Source of the DNA: Isotricha intestinalis
Taxonomy: Eukaryota; Ciliophora; Litostomatea; Vestibuliferida; Isotrichidae
Length of the DNA: 64,000 nucleotides
Assembly: GCA_023807065.1 (NCBI GenBank)
Contig: JAJJLU010000348.1
Coordinates: 20,080 to 84,079, forward strand
Direction of reading: 5' to 3'
Numbering within the stretch: the stretch's first letter is position 1; every line of letters begins with the position of its first letter. Of the stretch, positions 1-48,973 are shown in pieces. Both the position numbers and the translations under genes were made by a program. Under the pieces are notes generated by a model. The model ran no database searches. It was not told the origin of the DNA and saw nothing but the letters and a program-made list of their open reading frames with translations.

Positions 1-1
1 T

Positions 2-2687
2 TCAAATTTATTTATTAATCTATATAAAGCAAAAAATATTTCAACTGGAGACTATGTTTTAATAAAAGAAATTCAAAAATCAAAAATAAATCAATCGAAT
101 TTTTTAAAAATAATTGAAAATATGAAGAAATTAAAATCAGAAAACATAGTAAAATTCATTGATTTTCATGAAAATAAAAATTCATATTATTTAATAATAG
201 AATTATGCTTTATGTCTCTTGAAGAATATTTAGAAATTAAGAAAGAACCTTTATCAATTGAAGAAATAAGAGATATATTATTAGAAATAAATAAAGGTTT
301 AAAAGAAATAAGTGATAATAAATTAATTCATCAAAATCTTAAACTTTCTAATATTTTATTATCATTAAACAAAAATAAAATAAATCAAATAGATTTTAAA
401 ATATCAGATTTTGGGTTAAATAAAATATACGAAGAAAGTAATTCATTTCAAAAGAACATAGGTAGAAAATCGAATACAATTTCACCTGAAATTTTGAGTG
501 GAGAGAAAATAAATATAAAAAGTGATATATGGAGTTTAGGAGTTATTATCTATTATATGTTATTTAAAGAATATCCTTTTATAGAAGAAATTGAATCCAA
601 TCAAAAATTCAAAGAAATAAAAGAAAAAAATTTATATGATTTAATCAAAAAAATGTTAATTATAAATACAAAAGAAAGAATTTCTTGGGAAGAATATTTT
701 GACCATTCTTTTTTTAATTATAGTTCTGATAGAATAAATTTACCTTCATTTGAAATACAATGTGAAAAACATTCACAAGAATTAATTTCTTATTGTTCTT
801 CTTGTAAATCTAATATATGTGAAAAATGTTTAAATAATCACTCTGGCCATAAAGTTCTTTTTTTTAAAGATATTGGATTAACAGAAAAAGAAATGAATGA
901 AGTTGATGATTTATTAAAAAAAATTGATAATAATATTGAATCTTTTATTAAGATAAAAAAAATGATTGAAAATATTAAATCAATCGACGAAAATTCTTCA
1001 ATCTACGAAAATGATAATGATAATAATTATAAATATTATTTTATAGATTGCTTAAAGGTAATTAAAGAAAAAATGAAAATTAATGAAATTTCAATCCCAA
1101 AGGTTTTTGAATGGGAATTAAGGTTATTAATAATAATATTGTAGAGTTAAATTCTTTAATTTTAATTTAGTGCGTAATTATCATTAATTATTATAGAAAG
1201 TAAATAAATTACATAATTGTAATAAGAAAGTTAGAAAATAAATTAAATTAGTGTGTAAATGATTAAATAATATAGTATGTAAATATATATAAAAGTAGTA
1301 TGTAATTTATATTATTTTAAAATAAAATAGCAAGTAAAACTATTAAATTAATAAAAGTTTGTAATATTTTAAAATAATATATCAAGTGGGTAATAAAATA
1401 TTATTAATATTAAGAAGGTAATAAATAAAATAATAACTAAAAGGGAGTATATAACATATAAAAAGAAGAAAGTAAAATAAAAAAAGAAAAATTAGTATGT
1501 AAAATAATCAATAATAAAAGAAAGTAAAAGCAAATAACAATTAGCCAGTAAAAAAAGAGAAATAATATTTCTATTTATTTATAGATAGTAAGAAAATATT
1601 ATTTAGTTTATATAGAATGTATTAAAAATTGATTATATTGATTATAGGATGTTAAAAACAATATTAATTTATTAAAGGGTGTCAAATATAATTAATTTTT
1701 ATTAGGGAGTTAAAAAAATATTTTTAATAATAGATTGAAAGATAATATTCTTTAATTTTAGTGGGTAATCAATGATCATTAATTGATATTAGATGGTAAT
1801 TTATATTATATTCCTAAATAATTAAAGGGAATAAGATAATATTATAATTAATTCTAGGAAATATGATATTTATTAATTAATGATAGGGAGAAAGAAATTA
1901 TTTTTAATAATTAAAGTGGATAAGATAATATTATTAATTAATGATAGTATGTAAGATTAAGTTATTAGTTATAGAAAGTATAATTAAATATATAATAACT
2001 TTAGGGTGTAAAATAACATTAGGATTAATTATAGTATGTATGATAATTTAATTTTTATTATAGGGAGTAAGATGATTTAATCATATTACCAAAGGGAGTC
2101 AGATAATATTATAAATAATTAAAGTATGTAAGAATATATATAAATATAGTATGTAATTTAATATTTATAAAGAATAGAAAGTAAAACAATTTTATGAATT
2201 AAAGAGAGTAAATAATTATTAACTGATTTTATAGAATTTAAGCTGATTTTATTAATGAATTATAGGGAGTAATATAATATTAAAAAAATATAGATGATTG
2301 TTATTTATTAAATTTTATTTTTTTAGTGTGTATATTAATTTCATTATTAAAGAATGTATTAAATTATTAATATTAAGGATGTATTCTTCATATTTTATTC
2401 CAGAAAGTTTAATATTTATAATTTAAATTAGGAAGTAATATTAATAATATCTTTTTTAGCCTGTATTTAATCCAAATAATTTATTAGTGTGTATTTATTA
2501 TATTTAAATTAGCCCATTGTAAAATATATATAATTTAGTGTGTAATTATAATAATAATAGCAAGAGAGTAAATAAAAATTATTTAAAATATAGGCTGTTA
2601 ATAACTTAATAATAATTATTATTTTAGTGTGTAACAAATTAATTTATATAAAAGGAAAATTTTAAAGAATCAAATTCCTTTGAATAA
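2..2687 (+). CDS. Pseudokinase with B-box and a Cys-rich tail encoded by single-codon exons (5' partial)
   Basis: The frame is already open at base 2 and runs to 1122, so the true start lies left of the window. It encodes a Ser/Thr kinase fold: the VLIKEIQ strand with the ATP-site lysine (about 56-80), IHQNLKLSN in place of HRDLKPEN (about 325-355), SDFG (about 405), SPE in place of APE (about 485) and DIWSLGV (about 525). The catalytic Asp of HRD is Asn, so it is probably catalytically weak or dead. A B-box zinc finger follows (about 760-870, C-x2-H then C-x2-C pairs and H-x2-H). The plain frame meets TAG at 1142-1144. Splicing out the micro-introns listed under 1123-2654 instead extends the protein by about 65 residues to a TAA at 2685-2687. 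Kinase and B-box are clear; the spliced tail is an inference from sequence. Confidence 0.85.
1123..2654 (+). other. Array of 54 micro-introns separated by 1-6 nt exons, almost all exactly one codon
   Basis: AG-NNN-GT recurs every 23-40 nt. Proposed exons by first base: A 1145 (completes AG/A, Arg); TGC 1171, AAA 1197, AAA 1227, TGT 1252, TAT 1276, TAT 1299, CAA 1331, TTT 1358, TGG 1387, AAG 1415, GGA 1444, AAA 1469, TAT 1496, AAA 1521, CCA 1545, ATA 1585, AAT 1616, GAT 1648, GGT 1678, GGA 1706, ATT 1734, TGG 1762, ATG 1793, GGA 1828, GAA 1858, GGA 1887, TGG 1917, TAT 1948, AAA 1975, GGT 2005, TAT 2035, GGA 2064, GGA 2095, TAT 2125, TAT 2150, AAA 2178, AGA 2205, AAT 2235, GGA 2266, ATGATT 2294, TGT 2327, AAT 2353, GAT 2378, AAA 2404, GAA 2432, CCT 2460, TGT 2488, CCCATT 2513, TGT 2539, AGA 2565, GCT 2594, TGT 2628; terminal exon 2655-2687. 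Introns are 20-37 nt; all end in AG and 48 of 54 start with GT. No exon codon is a stop. Uncertain points: the 1-nt exon (one intron 1103-1170 would also keep phase), AAA 1469 (could be AAGAAA), and the exons next to non-GT introns. Confidence 0.82.
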
Positions 2688-35461: not shown

Positions 35462-37021
35462 TTAATAATCATCCCCAACAGTAAAAATTTCTTTTTTTGT
35501 AGGTTTCAACATAAAAGTATGTTCAAACTGACTAACATAACACCCTTCAATATCAGCAAGAGGTGGATAAGGATCAACCAATCCTTGATCAATTAATTGT
35601 TTCAAAGCCAAAGAATGATTTTTAAATCCATCTTCTTCAAGCCATCTCCTACACCAAGCTAAAGTATTATAATTCTTATATAAATGATTAAATAATTGTC
35701 TAGGCTTATCACCTCTTATTTTTTCCCCAGTAGCATATTCATTAACCATATAATGTGAACAATCACTTTTATCTGTCACCCATCCTTTCCCAGTTGAAGC
35801 AAAAGTTTCAATTGCATACATTTCACCTTCTTCCATTTTAGTATTATCATCCTTTTTAACTATTGGTACACTTTTACCAGCATGAACTTTATATTGTGCA
35901 ACAGTGTGTCCACATAAATTTCTAATTGCTCTAATTGGATAATTTTTACCATTTAATTCTACTTCATAACTTTCAAGTACTTCTTGTATTCCAGCACCTA
36001 TTTCACCTAATCTAGCATCAATCCCTGCTAATTTAATCCCATGATTTGTAGCTTCCTTTGATGCCATTAATAAATTATCATATATGGGATTGAAAGCTAC
36101 TGTGAATGCTGTATCAATAACAAATCCATTAATATGTGTTCCAAAATCGAATTTGCATACATCATCGTAATTCAATACCGTCTCATCACCGGAGTTAGGT
36201 GTGTAATGTGCGGCTACATGATTGAGGGAACATCCTGTAGGGAATGATTGACCACAATGAATAGTATTTTGATTTGTTATGAAACGAAGTATTTTTTCTA
36301 TATCTTCACATATATCAATCATTTTACGACCTGGTTTAATTATTCTTTGTGAATATTTCCTTACTTGACGATGACACTCTGCACCTTTACGCATTGAATC
36401 AATATCATATTCACGAAGACGTTCCATTTCTATTTTTTCTTTATCATTGCTTCTCCATATATTTCTAAATATTTAAAAATAATATTATATTTTTTTTACT
36501 TACTCGCTTGAATATTCTTCAATTATTCCAACAGGCCATTTTTTATCAGGAAATAATTCATCAATATCTTTTGTTGGATAATTAGTTTGAGTCCATTCTC
36601 CTTCTTTCCATGAACCTAAAAGACGAAATTGGGAATTGTCTTGAAAACGAGAGTTTGTTATTTCAATTCCTTGTTCTTTCCAATTTGTGTATTTTCTATA
36701 TGGATTCTCACGAGGTCCATCTTCTGATTCTTGCTTTTTTTTCTTGTGATGTTTCTTTTTCTTCTTTTTTTTATGGGGCTCTTCTTCTTTTTGATCTTCA
36801 TCTAATTCTTTTTCATCTTCTTTTTGTTCTGAAATTTCCTTTTTTTCTTCTTCATTCTTTAACTCTTCTTGTTTTTCCTCTTTTGGAATTTCTTCTTTTT
36901 TATTTTCTTGTTTTGACTCTTCTTTATTTTTTTTTTTCTTGTTTTTTTTCTTTGATGGTGTAGCTTCTTTTGTATCATCATTAATAAAATCTAATAAATC
37001 ATCAATTGATTGTCCTTCCAT
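35462..37021 (-). CDS. Methionine aminopeptidase 2, two exons
   Basis: Exon 1 is 37021-36504, a 39-nt GT-AG intron occupies 36503-36465 (GTAAGT start, TTTAG end), and exon 2 is 36464-35462. Joined length is 506 residues. The join yields EEYSSENIWRSNDKEK, continuous with the MetAP2 pattern, and replaces two separate frames. The N-terminus has the Glu/Lys-rich polybasic/acidic segment typical of MetAP2. The catalytic domain keeps all metal ligands: Asp pair in KFDFGTHINGFVIDTAF, His in CGHTVAQYKVHAG, Glu in AIETFASTGKG and Glu in QFEHTFML. It removes initiator methionine co-translationally. It is the best-conserved gene here and the only other clear case of splicing. Confidence 0.95.
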
Positions 37022-46510: not shown

Positions 46511-48973
46511 ATGGAAAAGAATTATCAAAATAAAAATATTCCAAATCCTAAAAAATCAATAAAAGAATTAGAAAAAACAGTATCAACGAAATTTTCAAAT
46601 CAATTTAATTCAAAAAGCAAAGATAATAATATATTAGAATTAATAATGGAAGTATTAATCTTTAATAAAGATTGTCATTTAGTTACAGTCTTTAAAGATT
46701 ATATGATATGGGATTTTATTGATGAATTTTTAAAAAGATTTTATAATAGAGAAGAAGGAAAAGATCGAATTCCAAGATATGCACATTTTTATAGAAATTA
46801 TTCTAAATTTTTTTGTAGACCAACTTTTAGAGATTTTGATATTAATGAAATTATTCAAGAACACAGTGAAAAAAAAGCAGAATTATATTATAATCAAAAT
46901 TTCAGAAGTAAAAAAGATAAAAATAAATTTGCTGATGAAGGATTATTTGAAGATGATGACAGTGAAAGTGTAAATGTTTCGAAATCAAAAATTGAGAAAA
47001 CAATTTTTAATAAAACAGTAAAAAAAAGTATTGATAATACTAGTCTATATTCTGCTCGAAATAATGAAACATTTCTATTAAATGTTGATAAAGATTTTAT
47101 TGATAATCAAAATATTTTAACTAAAAATTCATCCAATCAATCAATTATGAAAATCATTAGTGATTTTAATGAAAAAAAACAAGAAAAAGATATTAATGAA
47201 AATTCAAATAAAATTCAAACAAACGAATTGAATAAAAAAATGGAAGAAAATAAAAATCTATATAATATTAATATAAATAATAAAATAGATGAAAATAATA
47301 GAGAAGATAATAAAATTTTAATTAAAATAAAAAATGAAAATAATAGAGAAGATAATAAAATTTTAATTAAAATAAAAAATGAAAATAATAAGGAAGATAA
47401 TAATATTTTAAATAAAATAAAAGAAGAAAATAATAAGGAAGATAATAATATTTTAAATAAAATAAAAGAAAAAAATAATAAGGAAGATAATATCTCCTCA
47501 AATAAAATAAAAGAAGAAAATAAAATTTCAAATATAAAAAAAGAAGAAAATAATTTATCAAATACCAAAAAAGAAGAAAATGATTTTATTAAAAATAAAA
47601 AAAAGGAAGATAATATTTTGAATATTAAAAAAGAAGAAAATAAAAAGGAAGATAATAATATTTTCTATAAAAAAAAAGAAGATAATAAAAAAGAAGAAAG
47701 TAAAAATCAAGATATTAAAAATTTAAACAATAAAAAAGAAGAAAATAAAATTCAAGAAAGTAAGCAAGAAACAATAAATAAACCATTACAATTATATAAA
47801 TATAATACTCATATCCCAACTAAAAAAAATAGTAATTTAATATCATGTACTTCATTATTAAAAAAGCATAATTCAATAAATGAAAAAAACAATCATGAAA
47901 ATAAAAAAAAGAGTTCTCAAAATACAAACACTAATAAATCAACTCAGAATAAAAGTAAAATCAAAATAATAGAAAATATGAAACATATGTACATTAAGAG
48001 TAGAAATATCAATAATAATATGCAATTTTATACTAAAAATGATACTCACTTTAAAAATTATGATTTATTAACAAATAATGGAAAAAAAATAATTAATTTA
48101 ATCAAAACTCAAAATATAGAAAACTTATTATATAAGATAAATAAAAATGAAAAAGAATCTCATCAAAAAAACATTTATTCAATTGATAATTTATTGCATA
48201 TTCATCATTATGGGAAAAATAATTTTAAAATAAATTCAACAAGTAATATTCATTTTTCAAAAAAAATACAAAATAAATCAGCTAATGATAATTCAAATAC
48301 AAATTTTTTAATGAATAATATAAGTAAAACAAAAATAAATCCTTCTCTTTCAAGAGGGAGAAGTTATTCTAATAATAATAATCAAAAACAAATATCACCT
48401 AAAAAAGGAAACTTTAATAAAAATGAAGAATTAGTAAAAATAACTTTATCAACTTTATTAATGAATAATAAAGGAAGAAATAATAATAATAATTTAAAAC
48501 AACTAAAAACATATAAAGTAAATTTGTCATCAAATAAAATTAATCCTGTAAACAATAACCATTCAAATAACCAATTTCAAGATATAATTTCTTCAAAATT
48601 AAATAATAGGATAAACAGTAATGAAAAAATAAATTTAAATATAAATAGTAATTTAAATCAAATATTTAATAATAATTATAATTTAAAAATATCTAGAAAT
48701 AAAGGAAGAAATATTGATTTAATTCCAAATACTCTATCTCATCAGTTTAAAAGTGTTTCAAGTAATGATAAAAAAATGATTTTAAATACTGTTATTAGTA
48801 AAAGTCAAAATAAAAATGTTAGTCAAGGAAAACTGATTTATAATATTTCTAGTAGTCAATTAATAAATATGGGTAAATTAAAAGTAAGTAAACCAATTCA
48901 TTTAAAACAAAAAAGTATATATGGATCTTTAAATTATAAGAAAAAGGGCGGTGGTTTTTCCTATAAAAAATAA
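46511..48973 (+). CDS. Lys/Asn-rich protein with tandem repeats, paralogue of the 3682 gene
   Basis: The 820-residue protein opens with a conserved domain (about 35-140): LIFNKDCHLVTVFKDYMIWD, EFLKRFYNREEGKDRIPRYA, then HFYRNYSKFFCRPTFRDFDI. This aligns with residues 40-130 of the 3682 product. The middle (about 260-420) is built of Glu/Asn/Lys repeats, including five 15-residue tandem units. The rest is basic and N-rich, ending GGGFSYKK. No enzyme motif is present. The conserved N-terminal domain is likely the functional part; its role is unknown. Confidence 0.87.
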   Translation: MEKNYQNKNIPNPKKSIKELEKTVSTKFSNQFNSKSKDNNILELIMEVLIFNKDCHLVTVFKDYMIWDFIDEFLKRFYNREEGKDRIPRYAHFYRNYSKFFCRPTFRDFDINEIIQEHSEKKAELYYNQNFRSKKDKNKFADEGLFEDDDSESVNVSKSKIEKTIFNKTVKKSIDNTSLYSARNNETFLLNVDKDFIDNQNILTKNSSNQSIMKIISDFNEKKQEKDINENSNKIQTNELNKKMEENKNLYNININNKIDENNREDNKILIKIKNENNREDNKILIKIKNENNKEDNNILNKIKEENNKEDNNILNKIKEKNNKEDNISSNKIKEENKISNIKKEENNLSNTKKEENDFIKNKKKEDNILNIKKEENKKEDNNIFYKKKEDNKKEESKNQDIKNLNNKKEENKIQESKQETINKPLQLYKYNTHIPTKKNSNLISCTSLLKKHNSINEKNNHENKKKSSQNTNTNKSTQNKSKIKIIENMKHMYIKSRNINNNMQFYTKNDTHFKNYDLLTNNGKKIINLIKTQNIENLLYKINKNEKESHQKNIYSIDNLLHIHHYGKNNFKINSTSNIHFSKKIQNKSANDNSNTNFLMNNISKTKINPSLSRGRSYSNNNNQKQISPKKGNFNKNEELVKITLSTLLMNNKGRNNNNNLKQLKTYKVNLSSNKINPVNNNHSNNQFQDIISSKLNNRINSNEKINLNINSNLNQIFNNNYNLKISRNKGRNIDLIPNTLSHQFKSVSSNDKKMILNTVISKSQNKNVSQGKLIYNISSSQLINMGKLKVSKPIHLKQKSIYGSLNYKKKGGGFSYKK
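47291..47515 (+). repeat. Five tandem 45-bp coding repeats
   Basis: Units start at 47291, 47336, 47381, 47426 and 47471. Each encodes a 15-residue ENN(R/K)EDN-type unit followed by KIK. The first two copies are nearly identical, and so are the third and fourth, which indicates recent stepwise duplication. Degenerate units continue downstream to about 47700. Confidence 0.9.

Follow-up and report, generated by a model that had tools for sequence, protein, structure and literature searches.

The window, a stretch of 64,000 nt (positions 20080-84079 of contig C148, in an assembly of 57.3 Mb and 2153 contigs), had a GC content of 15-24% in 2-kb steps. It opens within a gene whose long first exon encodes a protein kinase domain and a B-box (Pfam on window 2-1120: Pkinase, E 6.7e-42; zf-B_box, E 7.1e-9). 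The kinase/B-box reading frame is open until a TAG at 1142. At 1123-2654 of the forward strand, 54 introns of 20-37 nt were identified around 53 micro-exons (Table 1), of which, according to the splice parse, one measured 1 nt, fifty measured 3 nt and two measured 6 nt.

Table 1. Features of the window gene and its micro-exon array (window coordinates)
Feature	Position	Strand	Basis or remark
Long first exon, protein kinase domain and B-box	1-1122	+	Gene start upstream of the window; ends ...FEWELR at the array junction
First micro-intron, GTTATTAATAATAATATTGTAG	1123-1144	+	Read by eye; fits the family A junction pattern
1-nt exon, A	1145	+	Completes AG/A (Arg) ahead of the first Cys codon
5' anchor, 15 one-codon exons, CKKCYYQFWKGKYKP	1171-1547	+	Diverged introns between; splice parse and locus comparison
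Variable loop, 24 one-codon exons and one 6-nt exon, INDGGIWMGEGWYKGYGGYYKRNGMI	1585-2299	+	Splice parse
3' anchor, 11 one-codon exons and one 6-nt exon (CCCATT), CNDKEPCPICRAC	2327-2630	+	Splice parse
Terminal exon, ten codons (ENFKESNSFE) and TAA	2655-2687	+	Sequence and splice parse
Non-GT donors	GAAAG 1737, 1890; ATAAG 1831, 1920; ATATG 1861; TTAAG 2238	+	Splice parse

The window array and its statistical support

Exact AG-NNN-GT sites, a plain count which carries no prior for 3-nt exons, unlike the splice parser, numbered 44 in 1101-2700 and 66 over the remainder of the forward strand. Each of the other spacers tested (0-12) gave at most 10 sites within 1101-2700 of the same strand. The splice parse weighed splice signals and intron length, favoured 3-nt exons through a prior, and made no use of stop or coding information; for the window, the training excluded the window's own introns and the start point was set at 1145. 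From there, 53 introns of 20-37 nt were returned, the last ending at 2654. The splice-model gain for the array was 210.4 log units. In 100 dinucleotide shuffles the gain averaged 1.1 and never exceeded 7.3, and none of 78 other tiles of 1556 nt in the window gave more than 2.9.

The parse thus returned a structure identical to that put forward in an earlier, sequence-only reading of this DNA, which had described about fifty AG-NNN-GT units separated by introns of 20-37 nt; nothing comparable was seen in the shuffles or tiles. The terminal exon which that reading had placed after the array was recovered, and a recheck again found the joined micro-exon frame open and both other phases running into stops. 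Its description of the flanks as fixed applied to most donors, but not to six of the 54, which are not GT and all lie inside the loop. Membership in a family spread over the genome, and a variable central loop whose introns are homogenised in younger copies, were not part of that reading.

Elsewhere in the window, no ordinary introns were found under a strict test that required 60 open codons on either side and would miss many. The methionine aminopeptidase 2 gene (window 35462-36427, minus strand) is uninterrupted and follows the standard code, which, together with the absence of ordinary introns, hints that introns are concentrated in the arrays. A 45-base tandem repeat of 5.8 copies is present at 47262-47523, within an 820-aa reading frame.

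A database protein (P0001, from a cluster of 26 members) was 99% identical to the window kinase/B-box protein, and runs on into intron 1 before it stops. Three further database relatives (P0002-P0004) showed 45-51% identity. P0001 and P0003 extend briefly beyond WELR and P0002 ends at WELR, which an array starting at that point would predict; the sequence of P0004 ends ahead of any WELR. Plain open-reading-frame prediction truncates the 3' domains of such genes, as in these relatives.

Related arrays in the assembly

A genome search for such arrays, which had been proposed from the sequence alone, gave 998 matches for pairs of units (AGNNNGTAA..TAGNNNGTAA), and the reversed control gave 207. 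Three consecutive units with TGG as the first codon were matched 45 times on 26 contigs, and the control gave none. When several pattern searches were pooled, at least one array signature was present on about 49 contigs, part of which were read in sequence; this count is approximate, as one of the pooled searches gave 11 matches against 4 in its control. The splice parse leaves unresolved stretches in three loci (L035, L038 and L051). Contigs C748, C870, C1306, C1954, C538 and C1974 end inside or beside arrays, and contigs ending in this way could reflect either an assembly broken by repeats or loops that differ among copies.

CCCCAAT repeats terminate eight loci. Arrays are present in six of these (L034, L035, L040, L041, L060 and L061). 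These six arrays therefore lie near the ends of macronuclear-looking chromosomes, and the capped contigs would be of the macronuclear type. A CCCCAAT telomere repeat has been reported for Muniziella cunhai and is, according to that source, the repeat of the Litostomatea (PMC11316547); the source organism is on this basis probably a litostome ciliate. At the minus-strand end of C88 (L041), no more than some tens of bases separate a family A array from the CCCCAAT telomere, as though the chromosome had been capped inside the array.

The arrays of family A, to which the window array belongs, were collected with the junction pattern GGRWTTAAG/GT..TAG/A/GT, which had 13 genome matches and one in the reversed control. 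The 1-nt exon occurs in all 13 junctions because the pattern itself contains it; the reading frame which that exon sets is not built into the pattern. The anchor frame was open in 9 of the 13 loci. Among the other four, L050 is cut by the contig end, the first codon of L053 is unresolved, and L054 and L056 contain defects that may mark them as decayed copies. The predicted spliced product reads RCxxCxYxFWxGEExP, then a loop, then a Cys followed by PCPxC where the 3' end is reached, so that members with the 3' anchor reached have two Cys pairs, CxxC and CPxC.

The front parts of the family A genes are diverse. A B-box lies ahead of the array in L049 (Pfam E 1.1e-4, just short of the curated cut-off) and, by eye, in L051 and L052. 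L057 has a trypsin-like front part (Pfam E 1.3e-5, also just short of the cut-off), as does L055, whose contig matches a protease query (E 1.6e-10). The front part of L034 is cysteine-rich and without a Pfam match, and L048, L050, L053, L054 and L056 have the short start MEIREINNPIDKWEL or a close variant. An ADP-ribosyltransferase-like front part, guessed by eye for L035, was dropped after Pfam gave nothing.

Over 14 family A loci, 500 of the 519 micro-exons measured 3 nt, and 510 measured 3, 6 or 9 nt in a parser that favours 3. One stop was observed among the 500 triplets, compared with 53 expected from composition. The synonymous choice in these micro-exons fitted the window's genes, in line with the gene-like codon usage that had been claimed for the window array (log-likelihood -172.9 under the window-gene model and -260.7 under a nucleotide-frequency model). 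Relative to genes, the micro-exons were rich in Trp (5.6% vs 0.5%), Cys (9.0 vs 1.2) and Gly (9.0 vs 3.3). The comparison of loci, with its shared Cys motif, its conserved triplets and its single stop in 500, strongly supports the proposal of a domain split codon by codon, and the array triplets are, on these grounds, very probably spliced codon exons.

A second family of arrays (family B) follows protease-like front parts (L033, Pfam E 1e-6; L036, contig vs protease query, E 3.8e-32), and its introns fall inside codons. The predicted spliced product reads ..EQFxENK..CFKC, then a loop, then CxxCxYxF, with the Cys pairs CFKC and CxxC in members whose 3' anchor is reached; the reads of L059 and L066 stop short of a clean 3' anchor. 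None of the 129 introns of L032, L033 and L036 has a non-GT donor, and some are present in L059, L060 and L066. A homogeneous 33-nt loop intron was found in L059 and L061 (15 exact matches, spread over 3 contigs, and none in the control) and a related intron of varying length in L062; it was not found in L032, L033 or L036, nor, by eye, in L066. Another one-codon array, L071 on C1616, has a 27-nt loop intron, and L037 and L039 share another 27-nt loop intron, although L037 reads poorly. The loop of L071 is strongly hydrophobic (WWFWLFGLMWFFILALGGFF) and resembles a membrane segment.

Homology searches were performed with the spliced domain. The best Pfam match among five spliced pieces had an E-value of 0.07 and the best PDB matches had E-values of 0.59 and 0.16. 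A family A alignment searched against 5.8 billion proteins gave 940 candidates, none at E 0.01. A 52-aa query for an unsplit family A domain returned no candidate, in a search run without a positive control. A protease-plus-loop query gave 49 matches, and the sequence was inspected for two of these, C89 and C1656; both were rejected as unsplit array domains, as they continue into other sequence. By eye, the C-terminal part of the trypsin-like paralog at C89:14650-15465 (L072) is helical, and that of the paralog at C1656:3155-3955 (L073) consists of leucine-rich-like repeats. Such other C-terminal parts on two protease paralogs fit exchangeable modules, without proving them. A candidate relative on a viral contig (L067) was discarded as a chance match in a reading frame, on a phage-like contig of 43% GC.

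Introns and codons of anchors and loops

In the final parse of 11 loci, 411 of 445 introns had GT donors, an AG acceptor being required by the parser. The array acceptors include AAG as well as TAG, and the intron length was 17-38 nt in 316 clean cases, from a search that allowed 15-42 nt. Non-GT donors were present in 53 of 518 family A introns (about 10%). Among these 53, 34 had G at +5, compared with 52 of the 465 introns with GT donors (Fisher p 7e-17), and the acceptor was TAG in 47, compared with 305 of the 465 (p 5e-4); both p-values are too optimistic because the copies share ancestry. The donor matrix should hardly prefer G at +5, since the starting introns had it in 39 of 316 cases. 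The 5' end of U1 is canonical (ATCACTTACCTGG) and matches the donors, and U6 has the canonical ACAGAGA. By their GT-AG ends and the U1 match, the array introns would be major (U2-type) spliceosomal introns. The only U1 gene found (C831:209-368, L044) lies about 200 bases from a telomere.

In the anchors, exon identity between distant copies was 0.682, compared with 0.301 for mismatched units, while the intron cores of the same copies agreed at 0.642, compared with 0.629 after shuffling (308 unit pairs from 8 loci). The pattern indicates that anchor codons are kept and anchor introns are free to diverge.

The loops of younger copies show the reverse. From a conserved Pro codon onward, the introns of L049, L053 and L057 abruptly become near-identical 28-mers (GTAAKATAATATTATTAATTAATTATAG), which recur throughout the loop. 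Exact copies of this 28-mer numbered 52 on 16 contigs, and the reversed control gave none. The three genes differ in their front parts, yet have near-identical 28-mer loop introns (beginning GTAAA in L057), and near-identical loop introns are also present in L054, L068, L069 and L070. In L054 (C1349), seven consecutive identical introns are separated by GAA, TTA, GAT, TGG, GGA and GAA. Over 201 units from 8 genes, which were picked by 28-mer similarity, include a few anchor introns and were compared in 6000 sampled pairs, intron identity was 0.879 within genes and 0.862 between genes, and the same codon was found in 0.089 of pairs within and 0.073 of pairs between genes. In young loops, codon agreement is thus at the level of chance while the introns are near-identical, the reverse of the anchors.

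The introns of the window loop scored 15.4 against the 28-mer, compared with 12.4 for core-shuffled introns and 11.1 for anchor introns. Since these introns look like decayed relatives of the 28-mer, the window array would be an older one. A weaker trace was present in L034 (14.7 vs 12.4) and L038 (12.8 vs 11.7). The core of the loop intron consists, by eye, of two abutting palindromes, and no target duplication was discernible in the 3-nt exons.

Closely related copies were compared separately. Across the 6 pairs formed by L048, L053, L054 and L056, the anchor segments share 92-97.5% identity once 19-157 gapped columns are excluded, and many introns of these copies agree at corresponding positions. 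L048 stops ahead of the loop and L056 yields few loop codons. Between L053 and L054, the anchor segments are 94.3% identical outside gaps, and the loop codons and loop lengths are unrelated. On these comparisons, the loop is probably hypervariable.

Repeats of whole units were also observed. An 11-unit block is repeated with the same codons in L049, and a 4-unit block is repeated in L068. Within-gene repeated codon runs (n = 4) numbered 9, compared with 4 at most in each of 300 shuffles. Codon runs common to loops of different genes showed no excess over shuffles, and gene-to-gene exchange of units is accordingly not demonstrated. Pairs of units with identical introns shared the left codon in 0.139 and the right codon in 0.182 of cases, against 0.080 and 0.084 for pairs with very different introns. 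Among rare intron variants common to units of one gene, 12 of 15 share at least one flanking codon, as counted by hand. These results support local duplication and movement of putative codon-plus-intron units in the arrays. In the L049 block copies, the codons are unchanged and the introns differ by a few per cent; codons are therefore not mutating faster than introns there.

Interpretation and comparison with known systems

The best explanation of these observations, to which we assign a probability of roughly 70% as a whole, is a zinc-ribbon-like domain encoded in codon exons, spliced by the ordinary major spliceosome and carrying a hypervariable loop of codon-plus-intron units. The 3' domain of the gene would be encoded almost wholly by one-codon exons. 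Neighbouring introns, only 3 nt apart, could hardly be engaged simultaneously and are most likely removed in sequence; with every ligation the upstream exon would grow by one codon and the next donor would be exposed, a form of intron definition. The earlier reading's proposal of splicing without exon definition would be reasonable on this view. The two Cys-pair anchors around a loop give the domain its apparent resemblance to a zinc ribbon and, as no homolog was detected, it is these pairs that point to metal binding. As the domain is joined to different effector-like parts (kinase/B-box and trypsin-like protease), it might serve as a sensor or recognition module.

The loop itself could be regarded as an array of units, each of one codon and one intron, between constant anchors. 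Because the units have one register, unequal recombination or conversion could duplicate, delete or move codons in frame, and recombination between the repeated introns would keep the introns alike while loops diverge in sequence and length. A fuller version, which we consider tentative and a little less probable than its opposite, is single-codon diversification: recombination between identical introns would insert, delete and reshuffle codons in frame within a Cys-anchored recognition loop common to kinase and protease effectors, perhaps differing among the macronuclear copies of one cell, and sequential splicing would join the codons.

Other explanations were weighed against the same data. 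The repetitive nature of the arrays, their frequent position near contig ends, and the defects in L054 and L056 might suggest a non-coding AT-rich tandem repeat, or the tail of a dead gene, that mimics exons. This is highly improbable given the single stop in 500 triplets, the gene-like codon choice, the failure of shuffles and tiles to give anything comparable, and the conservation of Cys, Tyr, Phe, Trp, Gly and Pro triplets behind different front parts. A similarly slight probability attaches to the intervening pieces being germline sequences eliminated at the DNA level instead of introns. The organism is ciliate-like and the pieces are short and AT-rich, but at six array loci they sit on telomere-capped contigs of macronuclear type, and their ends are GT..AG with a matching U1. 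Such ends, with AAG acceptors beside TAG, do not fit TA-bounded elements.

An unlikely, though more serious, alternative is an introner-like spread, in which a mobile intron would have inserted at every codon boundary of an older loop exon, the codons being old. This could explain why the loop introns fall into several homogeneous families, of 28, 33 and 27 nt, the first two of which recur as exact copies on 16 and 3 contigs, respectively; introners are known to make near-identical introns (PMC9860276). Against it, the spacing is exactly 3 nt in one phase, young loops are nearly saturated, and the loops of L053 and L054 are unrelated despite near-identical anchors. The exact 28-mer copies sit in arrays on the 10 inspected of the 16 contigs, and no unsplit copy was found, in one query without a positive control and in the two inspected of 49 matches. 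Combinatorial skipping of micro-exons, a generator of variants at the RNA level, is compatible with the best explanation and does not exclude it; we regard it as not very likely. The lengths of the family A micro-exons, nearly all multiples of three in this parse, would let a 3-nt skip keep the frame, and for schistosome micro-exon genes alternative splicing has been suggested to contribute to diversity (PMC10526429); however, the Cys anchors are not freely skippable without loss of the motif.

For the codon-exon array as preferred here, the consequences reach beyond this gene. To our knowledge, it would be the densest exon-intron structure known. The arrays would directly test the minimum exon size and the closest intron spacing for one spliceosome. 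Within a single array, the conservation of codons, in the anchors, is separated from that of introns, in the loops, a natural experiment on how introns are gained, on concerted evolution and on innovation in proteins. If the loops are renewed by recombination of codon units, they would represent a new kind of eukaryotic diversity generator. Variable receptors have constant anchors around a variable loop, and CRISPR arrays have constant repeats between variable units; in the present arrays, introns take the place of the repeats and single codons that of the variable units, and the likeness is an analogy only.

No earlier report of one-codon-exon arrays was found among the literature titles and abstract openings searched, a coverage that mostly leaves out subscription journals and preprints. 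Isolated 1-nt and 3-nt exons can be spliced (PMC4674806, PMC7392893); in the parts of these sources consulted, such exons stand singly, whereas here they form arrays. Very short introns are likewise described for Stentor (15-16 nt and AU-rich; PMC9505925) and Nyctotherus (PMC2633312), although not around one-codon exons in the portions seen. Introners resemble the loop introns in that near-identical introns occur in several genes (PMC9860276), but on the contigs inspected the copies described here lie one codon apart, clustered in a single type of domain.

The micro-exon genes (MEGs) of Schistosoma mansoni have 10-20 short exons, mostly of 15 bp (ranges of 3-81 and of 6-81 are both given), and introns of 0.1-5 kb, and encode secreted proteins (PMC10526429). 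Tandem runs of micro-exons, mostly multiples of three, and variable proteins are common to both systems. Unlike MEGs, the present arrays have as many as 88 exons in the parse, of which nearly all measure 3 nt, with introns mostly of 20-33 nt. In place of the long introns of MEGs the introns here are short, and the protein encoded in the window is a kinase/B-box protein. The homogenised introns of the young loops, and a Cys-anchored domain behind kinase/B-box or protease parts, also set the arrays apart from MEGs, and taken together they look like a new means of constructing variable loops in proteins.
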